Of a DNA stretch of 64,000 nt, positions 6,853 to 51,689 are shown piece by piece; within the stretch, counting starts at the first letter, position 1, and every line of letters begins with the position of its first letter. Origin of the DNA: Lentisphaera araneosa HTCC2155 (GTDB lineage: Bacteria > Verrucomicrobiota > Lentisphaeria > Lentisphaerales > Lentisphaeraceae); assembly GCF_000170755.1 (NCBI RefSeq), contig NZ_ABCK01000003.1, forward strand, positions 1-64,000, written 5' to 3'. The notes beneath the pieces are model-generated. The model made no database searches. It was not told where the DNA came from and saw nothing but the letters and a program-made list of their open reading frames with translations. Position numbers and translations under genes: made by a program.

Positions 6853-7788
6853 TTATTTCTCCACCTGGATACGTGGGTCAATGAAACCATAGAGGATGTC
6901 CACGGCTAAAACAGTGAGGACTAAAAAACTTCCGTAAAAAACGGTGGTTCCCATAATCACCGTGTAGTCGTTTTGCTGGACTGCTTGAACGAAAAATTTT
7001 CCGAGCCCAGGAATGGTGAAAATCGTTTCGATAACAAAACTCCCTGTGGTAATGGCCGCAATAGCAGGGCCAATAATTGTGATGACGGGAAGTACTGCAT
7101 TGCGCAGTTCGTGGCTGAAGAAAATTTGTTTTGGACTTAGACCTTTGGCGCGTGCGGTACGGATATAATCTGAGTGAATGACTTCAAGTAGCGAAGATCG
7201 CATAATTCTTGTGAGGAAGGCCATGGTGCCAAGGCCTAGGATCATGGCGGGAACAATTTGCGAGACAAATGATTCGGTGCCACGGTAGGGTAAATTCCAG
7301 CCAGTGGCAGCATTGAGTTTAACAATGAGTAATTGAGTACCACTGGCAAAGACAAAAGAGGGCACAGAGATAAAGAGGATGACGAGAATCATGCTCGTAT
7401 AATCTGGTAGTCGATTGCGGTATTTAGCAGCAATTGCACCCCACATGATGGCGCCTGTGGTGGCAAAGAAGATGGCGAGTAAGCCGAGCTTAGCTGAAAC
7501 GGGGAAGTGATTAGCAATAATATCATTGACTTTTGTGTTGCGATTCGTGTAGGAGAAACCGAGATCACCTTCGATAAAAGTCTTTTTGAGGAAAATGCCG
7601 TATTGAATCGCAATGGGTTTATCGATGCCATATTCGGCTTCAAGGGCCTTGCGAGTTTCGGGTGTAATCGCTTTTTCACTACTTAGAGGATCGCCCGGAA
7701 CCATGTGCATGGCAAAGAAAGTGGCGGTAGAAATAAAGAGGATGGTGATGATGCCGTGCCAAAGTCGCTTGAGAAGATATTTTTTCAT
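6853..7788 (-). CDS. oppB: ABC transporter permease, OppB/DppB type
   Basis: First permease of the peptide importer, 311 residues. The N-terminal helix is followed by MVPGDP, typical of OppB/DppB. Further helices follow, with the cytoplasmic EAA-type loop YIRTARAKGLSPKQIFFSHELRN that docks on the ATPases, and near the end FTIPGLGKFFVQAV, a family hallmark. Its start overlaps the oppA stop by 4 bases (ATGA). Third-from-last members of the operon follow in the order C, D, F. Confidence 0.93.
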   Translation of the reverse strand: MKKYLLKRLWHGIITILFISTATFFAMHMVPGDPLSSEKAITPETRKALEAEYGIDKPIAIQYGIFLKKTFIEGDLGFSYTNRNTKVNDIIANHFPVSAKLGLLAIFFATTGAIMWGAIAAKYRNRLPDYTSMILVILFISVPSFVFASGTQLLIVKLNAATGWNLPYRGTESFVSQIVPAMILGLGTMAFLTRIMRSSLLEVIHSDYIRTARAKGLSPKQIFFSHELRNAVLPVITIIGPAIAAITTGSFVIETIFTIPGLGKFFVQAVQQNDYTVIMGTTVFYGSFLVLTVLAVDILYGFIDPRIQVEK

Positions 7789-9383
7789 TCTTCAATCCTC
7801 GCATAAGTGAAATTGGGGTCACCGCCAGAAATGACGCGGAGAACATTTTTCAACCTTGAGTCTCTAACGTAGATGCCACCGCCTTCGAGAAGTGGGTGAA
7901 TGGGACATTCTTCTGTGAGGATTTGGTGCATGCGATGAAAATTACGACTGCGCACATGGGGGTCAATAGATTTATTCGCTTCGATCACGAGTTGATCGTA
8001 TTCCTCGTTTTTAAATTTGCCGCGATTATTATCGTTCCAGCTCGCGAAGAGGTCACCAAAAGTCATGGGGTCATAGTAGTCTGGTCCCCAGCCCGCACCA
8101 ACGAGGTCAAATTCGCCGCGGTTTGATTTTTCGATACGCAGTTTAAAAGTTTGAATATCGAGGTTGAGGTTTATATCGAGCTTGTCTTTGAGTTGGAATT
8201 GAATGTATTCTGCAGTTTTGATTGAGCCAGGAGAATCGGTGACTAGGTAGTTGAGCTTGATTTCGTCAATACCTAATTCTTGGCGAGCTTCGGCAATGAG
8301 TTTTTGAGCTTTATTGTAGTCGACGGGATTGGGTACGAAGTTGTGTTCGCTATGGAGTTCCTTTTCGGCTCCAGGAAGCCAGGAAGGAAAAATACTTGGG
8401 GCAGTTAAGTTGCCTGGCGTACCGAGGACTTTATTGACCACGTCGTAGGAACTAACGACCAATGAAATGGCTTGGCGAAGTTTTTTGTTCTGCGTGAGTC
8501 TTCCTTCACGTTGGTTGAATTCCACATAGAGCACAAAACCCGATTTATAGGTCAACATGGGGAGGCGTTGTTGCAGGGCACTTTTGATATTGTCGGCATC
8601 CAGGGAAGCCATGCTGACATCTTTAGAAACAAACATATTGAGAACCGTTTTTGGTTGGTCAATGATGGGCATTTTGATTTTGTTGAGCCAGACTTGGTCG
8701 CGATTCCAGTAATGCGGATTCTTGGTGAGGTTGATTTGAGTCTCTTTGGTCCAGCGAGTAATAGTGAAGGGGCCATTGTAGAGGATTTTCTCGGCGCTAG
8801 AGGCGTATTCGCGACCTGGGAATTTCTCGAAAAAACTTTGTTTAATGGGCATGAAACTAACAAAAGTTGTGAGGGTAGGGAAGTAGGCGCAGGGATAGGC
8901 GAATTCTACTGATAGGGTGTGGTCGTCGAGGGCTTTGACTCCCAGTTGATCAGGCTTGAGCTTCCCTTTTGCGACTTCCGCAGAATTTTTTAAGGGCGCC
9001 ATGATGAAATTATATTCGTTCTTGGGCGAGCTGGCGATGCGCCAACCATAGACGAAGTCGTGGGCAGTTACTGGGGATCCATCGGACCATTTGGCATTTT
9101 TGCGAAGTTTGAAAATGGCGGAGTCTTTTTTGATATCCCAAGATTCAGCCACTCCACCTACAAGCTTTTTGTTTTCATCCATGCGCATGAGGCCTTCGTA
9201 AATGTGTGCTTGCACCGTAAAGGCGACGGATGAAACGGGACCGATTGAGCTTAGTGTTGGGGGTTCTTGGGAGAGTGAGTAGGAAATACTACGCTCAGTA
9301 AAGTTAACGCCTTCACCCTCTTGTTCACAAGAGCAGAATGCTAATGCGAAAAGCGCAAAAGTAATGATGCGAAAAAATGACAA
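7785..9383 (-). CDS. oppA: Peptide-binding lipoprotein OppA, solute-binding protein family 5
   Basis: Extracytoplasmic binding protein that delivers the ligand to OppBC. I chose a TTG start at 9383: it sits 7 bases after AGGAG and gives a clean lipoprotein signal (LSFFRIITFALFALAFCSC), with the lipid on a Cys around residue 17-19. The frame also extends to a TTG at 9437, which lacks a ribosome-binding site and would bury the signal. Family 5 features include LRKNAKWSDGSPVTAHDFVYGW, YWNRDQVWLNKI and WGPDYYDPMTFGDLF. About 532 residues, normal length. First gene of the five-gene operon; its promoter should lie between 9384 and 9590, shared with the divergent gene. Confidence 0.9.
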   Translation of the reverse strand: MSFFRIITFALFALAFCSCEQEGEGVNFTERSISYSLSQEPPTLSSIGPVSSVAFTVQAHIYEGLMRMDENKKLVGGVAESWDIKKDSAIFKLRKNAKWSDGSPVTAHDFVYGWRIASSPKNEYNFIMAPLKNSAEVAKGKLKPDQLGVKALDDHTLSVEFAYPCAYFPTLTTFVSFMPIKQSFFEKFPGREYASSAEKILYNGPFTITRWTKETQINLTKNPHYWNRDQVWLNKIKMPIIDQPKTVLNMFVSKDVSMASLDADNIKSALQQRLPMLTYKSGFVLYVEFNQREGRLTQNKKLRQAISLVVSSYDVVNKVLGTPGNLTAPSIFPSWLPGAEKELHSEHNFVPNPVDYNKAQKLIAEARQELGIDEIKLNYLVTDSPGSIKTAEYIQFQLKDKLDINLNLDIQTFKLRIEKSNRGEFDLVGAGWGPDYYDPMTFGDLFASWNDNNRGKFKNEEYDQLVIEANKSIDPHVRSRNFHRMHQILTEECPIHPLLEGGGIYVRDSRLKNVLRVISGGDPNFTYARIEE

Positions 9384-9598
9384 ATTGACAACTCCTAATT
9401 GATCTATGTATTTTAATCGGATCGAGCCTGTATTCAAGCGAGTTTTTAGGGGAGGCGAAGATTATCTGAACTCTTATTTTATTGAAGTTTTCTGTTTTGA
9501 ATAAGCAAAATTTTTCTCTAAGCAAAGATAAAAGGATAATTTCGCTTGTAGAAGGACTAAGTTTTCACTACATTTTAGTAAGATAAAGAGGAGTGTTT

Positions 9599-47562: not shown

Positions 47563-48714
47563 TTATCGACAAGTCATAAAGAAGATGACGGCGATAACGA
47601 CGCCTATAATGCAGCCGACGTTATTGTTTTTCTCTTCGGGACTTTTGTAGAGTTTCTTCTTGGATGAGAGCTTAAGTTTTTTCTCGAGTTCACCCTGAAG
47701 TTTATTGATAATGATTTGTTGACCTTCGATGCGCTTTTGGAGTGCTTCAATCTGAGAGTCTTCTTTGGGTGAGGCCTTTTTTGCTGAGAATTCGATGCGC
47801 TCTTTATTGAGTTGTTCTTTTTCTCCGACCCAGCGCTTACGTTCTTTGAGGAAGGCCTCATTGGTTTGACTTAGGTCATTTTGGAGTTTTTGGATTTCCT
47901 TTTGAAGTTTTTTGATTGTCTCTGATTTATCTTCTGAAGTTTCAGCCTTTTGCCTGTCGAGATCGGTTTGCAGTGATTCACGGAGCTTCTGTTCCTCTTT
48001 GAATAATTCCTCTTGTTCGCAGCGTAGGTTCTCTGAGGCTAAGAAATTATTTTTCATTTGGGCGAGTGATTTGCGAAGCTTTTGGTTTTCGAGATCGCTG
48101 GCCATGAGTTCAATATCGCTTTCTCTATCGCTATCATCATCAAAGTTTGAATCTGATATGATGTCGACTGAATCAGAGCTTAAATTGATTGGGTCTGATG
48201 TGATTTTTACTGGATCAGAGGAGGGCTCTTTGCGTGCTTGTTCCATCGCGATAATCGCAGATTTTTTAAATTCGTCTATGGCATTTTGAACTTCTTCTAA
48301 TTCATTTTCGATGAGCTCTTTGATATTGGGCTCTTTACGTTCGATCTCACGCATGGCGCGTTTGGCATCGTAGGAATTTACCCCTTTGTCTTTATCGATG
48401 TTGAGTAGGTAGTGATAGGCTTTGGTGCCACCAATTTTCCCGAGGGCTTGAACGGCATAACGGCTATTCATACCTTTGCCTTGGGTGATGGGAAAAATGA
48501 CGTCGGAAGCTTGATAGATTGCCATGTCCCCGGCAATTTTAAGGCAATCGCGTTGGAGTGCTTCATCCTCCATGTTCTGGACGAGCTTAATAACAGAGTT
48601 GGTGAGTTCTAAACCTTTTTTCGCTGTGCGAATTTTTCTGAGTGCGGTTCTTCTGACAACAATGCTGACCGACACATCCAGAGCGGTTTTGATTAGATCA
48701 TCTAAATTATACAT
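47563..48714 (-). CDS. HEAT-like/coiled-coil protein with a C-terminal membrane anchor
   Basis: 383 residues, family not recognised. The first 150 residues are helical with a HEAT-like feel (VVRRTALRKIRTAKKGLEL, SRYAVQALGKIGGTKAYHYL). An acidic Ser/Asp-rich linker follows (about 165-200, SDPVKITSDPINLSSDSVD). A long coiled coil covers about 205-345, and the last 20 residues are one membrane helix (NVGCIIGVVIAVIFFMTC) ending in a single Arg. This is a tail-anchored layout. It ends convergently with the ATPase gene. A scaffold role is possible but not shown. Confidence 0.7.
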   Translation of the reverse strand: MYNLDDLIKTALDVSVSIVVRRTALRKIRTAKKGLELTNSVIKLVQNMEDEALQRDCLKIAGDMAIYQASDVIFPITQGKGMNSRYAVQALGKIGGTKAYHYLLNIDKDKGVNSYDAKRAMREIERKEPNIKELIENELEEVQNAIDEFKKSAIIAMEQARKEPSSDPVKITSDPINLSSDSVDIISDSNFDDDSDRESDIELMASDLENQKLRKSLAQMKNNFLASENLRCEQEELFKEEQKLRESLQTDLDRQKAETSEDKSETIKKLQKEIQKLQNDLSQTNEAFLKERKRWVGEKEQLNKERIEFSAKKASPKEDSQIEALQKRIEGQQIIINKLQGELEKKLKLSSKKKLYKSPEEKNNNVGCIIGVVIAVIFFMTCR

Positions 48715-48772: not shown

Positions 48773-49474
48773 TTAGAGATAGCAGCGTTGGACGAAGGGA
48801 GTTTGATTGAATATTGGGGGAGAAACTCGATCAAATTGTTTAGCAATAGCTGGGGAACAGTCAATTATTTTACACTTAGGGTAAAGCTTGCTAATTTCAT
48901 CTTTAATAAGGTGATAATGCGTACAAGCTAAAGCAATGGTGTCGAGTTCTGCAATATTTGCGAGGGGCGCAAGTTCTTTGCTAAGTGATTCCTGGCAAAA
49001 AGATTGATTAGCGACGTAGTTTTCACTAATGCTGGCTAAGAGTGGAGTCGGGATGAGATGGATTTTTGCGTCTTGCGCAAAATCGTTAATAAGTTGTTTT
49101 GTGTAAGAGCTGTGAGTTGTTGCCGGAGTGGCGAGTAGTGCGATGCATTTGTTTGGGCTATTAGCGACGGCCAGTTTAATAGGCGGAACAGTGCCGATGA
49201 CGGGGCAATCAAGGATGTTTCTGAAAATTTCTAAGGCATGAGTACTGGCGGTGTTACAGGCTAGGATGAGAGAAATAGGTTTTGTGTTCTTGATCGTCTG
49301 AGCTATTTCTCTGAAATTTTCTTCAAGTTGGGCAATGCTTTTGTTGCCGTAGGGAAAAAAGCTTTTGTCTTCTATGATGATATAATTTGAGTTGGGACGG
49401 AGTTTTTTACATTCACGACAAATACTGTGTGCCCCCGCACCAAAATCTCATATCATGACTGCCGATTGCATCAT
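48773..49474 (-). pseudogene. murI: Glutamate racemase gene interrupted by an in-frame TGA at codon 9
   Basis: Supplies D-glutamate for peptidoglycan. Read from the ATG at 49474 the frame is 234 codons long and ends at TAA 48775-48773. It keeps the racemase hallmarks: C73 in LACNTAS, C184 in ALACTHYHLI, and SFFPYGNKS, IGTVPPIK and LLATPATT in between. The only break is a TGA at 49450-49448, in MI(stop)DFGAGAHSIC, the spot of the N-terminal VFDSG motif. No later in-frame start could save the catalytic N-terminus. The rest shows no decay. It may be a recent nonsense change, a sequence error, or read through. It follows ribF by 7 bases. The DSG motif is DFG here, so the enzyme is divergent as well. 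Confidence 0.85.
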
Positions 49475-49481
49475 ATCGAGT

Positions 49482-50408
49482 TCACAGAATTTGACGAGCT
49501 TGGGCAATGTCATGTTGGATCTGCTTTTTTAATTCATCTGGTGAATCAAACTTTTTTTCGTCTCTAATAAATCTATGGATATGAATACTCACTTCTTTGT
49601 CGTAAAGTTCTCCTGAAAAGTCAAAGATATGAAGTTCCACATGTTGGTTGTGTTGCTGTTTTTCTAGAAAAGTAGGCGCGGAACCAATATTTAAAATTCC
49701 TGTGTAAACTTGGCGATCAATTTTTGCGTGAACGGCAAACACACCCGATATCGGCAAGAGTGGGATGCCAGTATCAATATTTGCGGTTGGCGTTTTTAGT
49801 TTTTCGCTAGCGAGTCCAAGGCCTTTGACGACTTTGCCCGAAAGATACCACTTGTGGCTGAGCAGGCGCTCGGCTTCGGCGAACTTGTGTTCTTCGAGCG
49901 CTTTGCGGATGCGAGAGCTAGAAACTGCTTCGCCATCGAGGAGGTATTCGTCTACGGGGTGAGTGGTAAAATGGTCTGAATATTCTTGAAGAAGATTGAT
50001 GTCGCCCTTACGGTCTGCACCAAAGAGCCATTCGCGACCAACGCAAAAGTCAGTCAAATTGATTCCACTTTCTAAAAGGTGATTTTTGATGAAATCACGA
50101 GGTGGTGTCTCGGCTAATCCTTTGTTAAAAGGGAGGATGACGAGGGCTTTGATACCCAGTGACTCAAAAGTCTTGAGTCGCCTCTCTAATGAGGAGAGGG
50201 TGGGGATGCATTGGCCTGTAAAGAATTCTCGCGGATGTGGAGAAAAACTTAAAACCACTGGTGTGGAATTGTTTTCTTTCCCTTGATCGATAGCTTTTTG
50301 GAGAAGCTTGCGATGTCCGCGATGAATTCCGTCAAAGTTTCCACAGGCAATGCTGACATCATTGATGCCATGGTTTTGAAGTTCCTGTAAAGAATGGCAG
50401 AGGAGCAT
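49482..50408 (-). CDS. ribF: Bifunctional riboflavin kinase / FAD synthetase
   Basis: Makes FMN from riboflavin and then FAD. The N-terminal nucleotidyltransferase has VSIACGNFDGIHRGHRKLL and later FCVGREWLFGADRKGD and SSSRIRKALEE. The C-terminal flavokinase has GLASEKLKTPTANIDTG, the PTAN motif, and LHIFDFSGELYDKEVSIHIHRFIRDE. 308 residues, normal. Stop-start spacing to truB is one base and to murI 7 bases; the order rbfA-truB-ribF is a common bacterial arrangement. Confidence 0.95.
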   Translation of the reverse strand: MLLCHSLQELQNHGINDVSIACGNFDGIHRGHRKLLQKAIDQGKENNSTPVVLSFSPHPREFFTGQCIPTLSSLERRLKTFESLGIKALVILPFNKGLAETPPRDFIKNHLLESGINLTDFCVGREWLFGADRKGDINLLQEYSDHFTTHPVDEYLLDGEAVSSSRIRKALEEHKFAEAERLLSHKWYLSGKVVKGLGLASEKLKTPTANIDTGIPLLPISGVFAVHAKIDRQVYTGILNIGSAPTFLEKQQHNQHVELHIFDFSGELYDKEVSIHIHRFIRDEKKFDSPDELKKQIQHDIAQARQIL

Positions 50409-50409
50409 T

Positions 50410-51147
50410 TTAGTCTTCGGCTATTTCCACTTGATCAATAGGGATAATAAATTTCTCAGCGTCTTCGCGCTCAATTGTTTTTAAGTGAGCGACTTCAACG
50501 GCATTATCGAGTAAGAATTGTCCGCTTTGCGTTCTTCGCAAATTGCTCATGTATGCGGCTGTCTCAAGCTTTCTTCCCATGTCGTGGCAAAGAACCCGAA
50601 CATAGGAGCCTTTAGAACAATGAAGTGTGAAGTGAACTTTTGGGAGATCAATTTTATCGATGTCTAGACTATGGAAAGTGACGGGGCGAGCTTCGCGTTC
50701 AACTTCAATTCCTTGGCGTGCGAGCTCGTAAAGTTTTTTCCCATCTTTTTTGAGAGCAGAAACCATGGGCGGAATTTGCATTTGATCGCCAGTGAAATCT
50801 TTGGCGCATTGCTGGATTTGTTCTTCAGTCACGTGATCAAAGCTCGCTTCGCGAGTTGTTTCCCCTTCTTCATCATGAGAGGCTGTCTCGCGACCTAAAG
50901 TCATTTCAGTGATATAAGTTTTATCATCGGAAGTAAGTTTGCTAGCGAGTTTTGTGGCTTTGCCAATAACGACGACAATGAGCCCCGTCGCTAAAGGATC
51001 GAGTGTGCCACAGTGGCCAACTTTGTTAAATCGGTAACGATTGCGAACTAAGTTGACAACGTCATGAGATGTCCACTCTTTGGGCTTGTCAACGAGGAGG
51101 ATGCCATCAAAATCTGGTGTGGGGTTTTTTCTACGGCGACGTCCCAT
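50410..51147 (-). CDS. truB: tRNA pseudouridine(55) synthase
   Basis: Isomerises U55 in the T-loop of tRNAs. The catalytic Asp is D50 in GHCGTLDPLATGLIVV. DGILLVDKPKEWTSHDVV precedes it, and the conserved MQIPPMVSALKKDGKKLYELARQGIEVEREAR and HCSKGSYVRVLCHDMG follow. A basic leader MGRRRRKN opens the protein. 245 residues, so the C-terminal PUA-like extension of longer forms is short or missing. It starts directly after rbfA. Confidence 0.95.
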   Translation of the reverse strand: MGRRRRKNPTPDFDGILLVDKPKEWTSHDVVNLVRNRYRFNKVGHCGTLDPLATGLIVVVIGKATKLASKLTSDDKTYITEMTLGRETASHDEEGETTREASFDHVTEEQIQQCAKDFTGDQMQIPPMVSALKKDGKKLYELARQGIEVEREARPVTFHSLDIDKIDLPKVHFTLHCSKGSYVRVLCHDMGRKLETAAYMSNLRRTQSGQFLLDNAVEVAHLKTIEREDAEKFIIPIDQVEIAED

Positions 51148-51507
51148 TTAGTCTTCGTCTTCGCTAGGGATATCAATAGAATCGATGAGTGAAGAAAGAC
51201 GATCAGCCGTTTCTGGTGTGTCATCACAATGCCAGTGAATCACTGGGGTGAACTTCATGCGAATACGCTTACTGAGGTGATTAAAGAACTCTTCTGAGCG
51301 GTCGCGGAGAAAACGAATGACGTCTTCTTTTTGTTGGTTTGACCCCATCACGCTGACGTAGACGTTGCAGTGCCTGAGATCAGCAGATGTTTTAACGCCA
51401 GTTACGGTAATGAGGCATTCGAAGCAGGGGAAGACCTCTCGGATGAATACTGAACTGAGCTCTTTTTGGATCGTTGAATCCACGCTACGCATTCTGTCTT
51501 TTGACAT
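51148..51507 (-). CDS. rbfA: Ribosome-binding factor A
   Basis: Late 30S maturation factor that binds near helix 1 of 16S rRNA. About 119 residues with a KH-like fold: MRSVDSTIQKELSSVFIREV, VTGVKTSADLRHCNVYVSVMG and LRDRSEEFFNHLSKRIRMKFTPVIHWHCDDT, the usual block near the end. The ATG at 51507 follows AAGGA; the frame extends upstream to 51540 with residues that do not fit. First gene of the rbfA-truB-ribF-murI unit. Confidence 0.94.
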   Translation of the reverse strand: MSKDRMRSVDSTIQKELSSVFIREVFPCFECLITVTGVKTSADLRHCNVYVSVMGSNQQKEDVIRFLRDRSEEFFNHLSKRIRMKFTPVIHWHCDDTPETADRLSSLIDSIDIPSEDED

Positions 51508-51689
51508 TTGATTTTCCTTTATTAAATAAATTTCGAGCAATATAGGCTCAAAGTATCGATTTCCTAATTAAGCCGAGTAAAAGAGCTGAGTATTGATAAA
51601 AGTGAATCTGAGTAGTGAAAATATTTCTTTAAATTAATGGAAAGATGGAATATGCTTAGGCATGAAATTAATAAATCGAGGGAAACGAC

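Follow-up and report, generated by a model that had tools for sequence, protein, structure and literature searches.

Does Lentisphaera araneosa HTCC2155 have a broken gene for glutamate racemase (MurI) and, if so, is the break a property of the organism or of its deposited sequence? The gene murI is usually essential, and in the window (the whole stretch of DNA that was analysed, 64,000 nucleotides) a murI-like frame is interrupted by a stop codon. A sequence-only reading of this DNA had described a 234-codon frame at 49474-48773 (-) with a single in-frame stop, the TGA at 49450-49448 inside MI*DFGAG (the asterisk being the stop), and both the frame and the stop were confirmed. We nevertheless moved the start upstream: MTLPK begins murI in all three Lentisphaera genomes, at an ATG (49513) lying 13 codons upstream of the start noted earlier, and because this ATG is conserved in both congeners, the frame (48773..49513, -) comprises 247 codons, with a terminal TAA, and the TGA becomes codon 22. 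The new start lies inside the 3' end of ribF, producing an overlap of 32 nt (49482..49513, -) that is the same in the two congeners, G001 and G002 (L. marina IMCC11369).

The identification of the frame as murI was likewise borne out, by profile matches and by synteny common to both congeners. The TIGR00067 match spans the TGA (E 3.4e-40; 139.3 bits vs a cut-off of 146.65, near which the congeners also score, G001 at about 141-142 and G002 at 156) and, far stronger than chance would give, is significant over 210 profile positions. In addition, a profile built from the three genus murI sequences finds glutamate racemases of solved structure (best 2jfn_A, E 2.4e-43), and the congener orthologues are intact and occupy the same place. 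As in other MurI proteins (TIGR00067; PF01177; 2jfn), the active-site Asp, both catalytic Cys, the Glu and the His are kept; the two racemase cysteines, previously numbered C73 and C184, correspond to codon 86 in the ACNTAST motif (49256..49258, -) and codon 197 in the CTHYH motif (48923..48925, -), each an invariant alignment column. Unlike other MurI, the gene has an in-frame TGA and a Ser-to-Phe change in the N-terminal catalytic motif, both in the L. araneosa genome only, and throughout the genus the C-terminal segment is incomplete. Judged by these matches, 48773-49513 (-) is an ordinary chromosomal glutamate racemase gene, the enzyme activity of which is predicted. The racemase of all three Lentisphaera genomes stops 50 residues past the second catalytic Cys (the median for the protein family is 85), and all three have GAGAHS where others have GxGGLS.

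The gene is the last of an rbfA-truB-ribF-murI run, in which rbfA (51148..51540, -; PF02033) and truB (50410..51147, -; PF01509) are followed by the upstream neighbour of murI, ribF, encoding FAD synthetase / riboflavin kinase (49482..50408, -; PF06574, PF01687). Gene order is common to L. marina IMCC11369 over most of the window, and the local order is also common to G001. Directly downstream of murI, a 383-aa gene (47563-48714, -) is kept in both congeners and has no Pfam match.

The TGA (codon 22; 49448..49450, -) is aligned to a Leu codon in the congeners (CTC / CTA). It had been taken to be the only defect, which proved wrong. Two codons further on, codon 24 (49442..49444, -) is TTT (Phe), although the DSG motif has an invariant active-site Ser there; in the alignment this column holds Ser in both congeners and in 61/61 outgroup racemases, with Phe only in L. 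araneosa, and S24F is the sole private change at an invariant site in murI. For MurI, Asp7, Ser8, Cys70 and Thr72 have been named as N-terminal residues of the active site (PMC11801594), and of the Asp-Ser pair the Asp is kept in L. araneosa whereas the Ser is replaced by Phe. Assuming that TTA was the Leu codon lost (it is the most frequent one for Leu in twelve genes of the window, 182/724), the changed positions span seven bases. The placement of the TGA in the catalytic N-terminus stands, and the accompanying claim that a restart downstream would give a dead enzyme has to be corrected: codons 23-246, scanned in frame, contain no ATG, GTG or TTG, so that an ordinary restart is unavailable. 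An alternative start or a frameshift around the TGA was rejected because no in-frame start codon lies downstream. From the gene as written, the TGA would act as a plain stop and only a 21-residue peptide would be made. A scan of 2.29 Mb (38%) of the genome for frames whose coding sequence runs on beyond an in-frame stop, with no new start, ranked murI first (score 64; the next were 45, 35 and 27).

Comparison at the ribF-murI junction, which the sequence-only reading had proposed as a check, placed an intact murI at the same position in both other Lentisphaera genomes, with Leu at the TGA codon. More widely, a TIGR00067 murI is kept in 6/6 genomes of the bacterial family and is intact in all five besides L. 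araneosa. Protein distances among the three congeners are 0.35/0.35/0.38 for murI and 0.38/0.36/0.38 for murD, and the L. araneosa murI branch, at 28% of the three-branch total, is not long. As the murI distances equal those of murD and the branch is not long, normal constraint acted on the gene up to a very recent time. The lesion is, by these measures, young, and age alone does not tell a new mutation from a base-call error. In a scan of named genomes, the single murI sequence matched nothing, and the genus alignment matched outgroups and L. marina, the latter at 100% to G002.

We also assessed whether L. araneosa could obtain D-glutamate elsewhere. A second racemase or a D-amino-acid transaminase (Dat) had been suggested as a rescue, and neither was found: searches of the genome with TIGR00067 and PF01177 returned no second murI, and no Dat was detected. 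The only other PF01177 match, on contig C8, falls in a frame that we read from its sequence as PanB and that adjoins PanC. The two Aminotran_4 proteins of the genome were rejected as Dat, one being a type II IlvE (TIGR01123 over the cut-off) and the other a 599-aa protein read from sequence as a PabB-PabC fusion. In Xanthomonas, MurD2/MurL provide a route to D-Glu-containing peptidoglycan without murI or dat; the MurD residues that decide for D-Glu are Asp and Lys, and MurD2 has Glu and Arg instead (PMC8788868). In contrast to that route, L. araneosa MurD lacks the MurD2-type Glu and Arg and reads EDH and RDK, that is, the D-Glu-type Asp and Lys. With no other D-Glu source found and a MurD of the D-Glu type, a true murI null would be hard to survive and, as far as tested, L. 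araneosa should need MurI. Among the explanations first offered for the stop, a very recent break or an error has held up, and those that lost support were rescue, for which no second racemase or Dat was found, and read-through, for which no machinery was found.

The explanation that we place first, and would accept about as readily as reject, is a small patch of miscalled bases in the draft consensus (6,023,180 bases in 81 contigs), which we consider slightly likelier than a real fixed mutation. The lesion would be very young and confined to seven bases, with TGA standing where a Leu codon should be and Phe replacing the Ser two codons on. We put error above real loss because the two changes occur together, the gene is otherwise constrained and no backup was found. 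The position of S24F beside the TGA, and not elsewhere in the 247 codons, favours a bad patch, since independent decay would scatter its changes. However, the locus sits at about 49 kb in a contig of 346 kb, ambiguous bases are absent from the window and, apart from murI, none of the window genes with a counterpart in L. marina IMCC11369 is broken in L. araneosa, all of which speaks against an error; so does the fact that a single multi-base mutation would cluster in the same way. Should the patch be erroneous, the result would be a correction to the draft genome of a type species.

A real recent inactivation, in which the strain has lost MurI and makes D-Glu in another way missed by our searches, is a serious contender that we are somewhat more inclined to doubt than to accept. 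D-Glu can evidently be made without murI in the class, as a TIGR00067 match is absent in 21/40 Lentisphaeria genomes (G006, G007, G010, the single-contig G011, G014, G018, G021, G022 and others), most of which also have no match to PF01177 (the Asp/Glu racemase family), and a canonical MurD is present in 7/7 of the murI-less genomes tested. Nor was a D-amino-acid transaminase seen in the murI-less members tested, in which the class IV aminotransferases seen were limited to IlvE or one other. Going by these profile searches, either the class must have an unrecognised D-Glu source or the searches must miss the source. The presence of S24F as a second damaging change would also fit a gene freed from selection, and the early C-terminal end of the genus racemase is compatible with the same reading. 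On the other side, the retention of murI in all six family genomes and a constraint like that of murD argue against redundancy, and the former makes it uncertain whether L. araneosa shares an unrecognised source; the alternative source itself was not found; and two changes in seven bases with none elsewhere are unlike ordinary decay. A more specific proposal, which we consider unlikely, is that L. araneosa lives without MurI on a D-Glu source that is neither MurI nor Dat and is common to the murI-less Lentisphaeria, the loss having been caught at its first step. A real loss would mean that a free-living bacterium has only just given up a cell-wall gene that is normally essential, and would point towards a D-glutamate route in Lentisphaeria that has gone unrecognised.

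Behind the error and the real loss come the explanations in which the UGA is translated. Near-cognate misreading or an unrecognised factor might read through it and yield some full-length protein, in keeping with a frame that is intact past the TGA to its natural end in a gene that few bacteria can spare. We consider this improbable, as the full-length product would still have Phe at the invariant active-site Ser, no anticodon-UCA tRNA occurs among the tRNA genes found (33 anticodon types), and a Hirsh-type tRNA-Trp mutation was not found, the tRNA-Trp (CCA) having the normal G24. Moreover, TGA is a usual terminator in this genome (193/1008 long frames), and the interruption scan of 2.29 Mb contained no other strong case caused by TGA. 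Both congeners use a Leu codon at this position, so no conserved recoding is indicated. Recoding of the murI TGA is unlikely, and the lesion, whether a real loss or an error, provides no evidence of it.

An old murI pseudogene after long decay would account for a stop accompanied by a missense mutation at an invariant position, but is very improbable and, on the sequence comparisons, excluded: the 247 codons contain just one stop and no frameshift, changes at sites at least 90% conserved in outgroups number 7 in L. araneosa vs 6 and 6 in the congeners, and the L. araneosa branch is not accelerated. Weakest of all, with next to no probability, is selenocysteine recoding, in which the gene resembles UGA-recoded selenoprotein genes by its lone in-frame TGA near the active site with the frame open beyond it, but differs from them in that the L. 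araneosa genome yielded no tRNA-Sec (the best RF01852 match is a tRNA-Ser with a UGA anticodon) and no SelB over the cut-off, both of which were detected in the positive control G005, a member of the family, while the RNA past the UGA is no more stably folded than its shuffled versions (z = -0.01) and has no SECIS-like hairpin, and the congener orthologues have Leu, not Cys, at the UGA. Among the six family genomes, tRNA-Sec and SelB exceed the cut-off in G005 alone (L032, L091).

Several other interruptions were observed. The two ranked next after murI in the scan, named from their sequences, are a GxxExxY-like gene (ACFEVYNEIGPGFLEAV*QECLELEF; G000:C3:244652, -; L137), with a single interruption, and a transposase-like gene (G000:C15:7364, -), both broken by TAA; an AlbA-like gene (G000:C11:51784, -), also named from its sequence, likewise has one in-frame TAA. 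A GTPase match with one TAA on contig C29 was rejected, as it proved to be an intact EngB-like gene. Within the window, the gene at 7785-9437 (-) is intact, whereas its counterpart in L. marina IMCC11369 is split by about 1.3 kb encoding a transposase-like protein (ISL3-like by eye).
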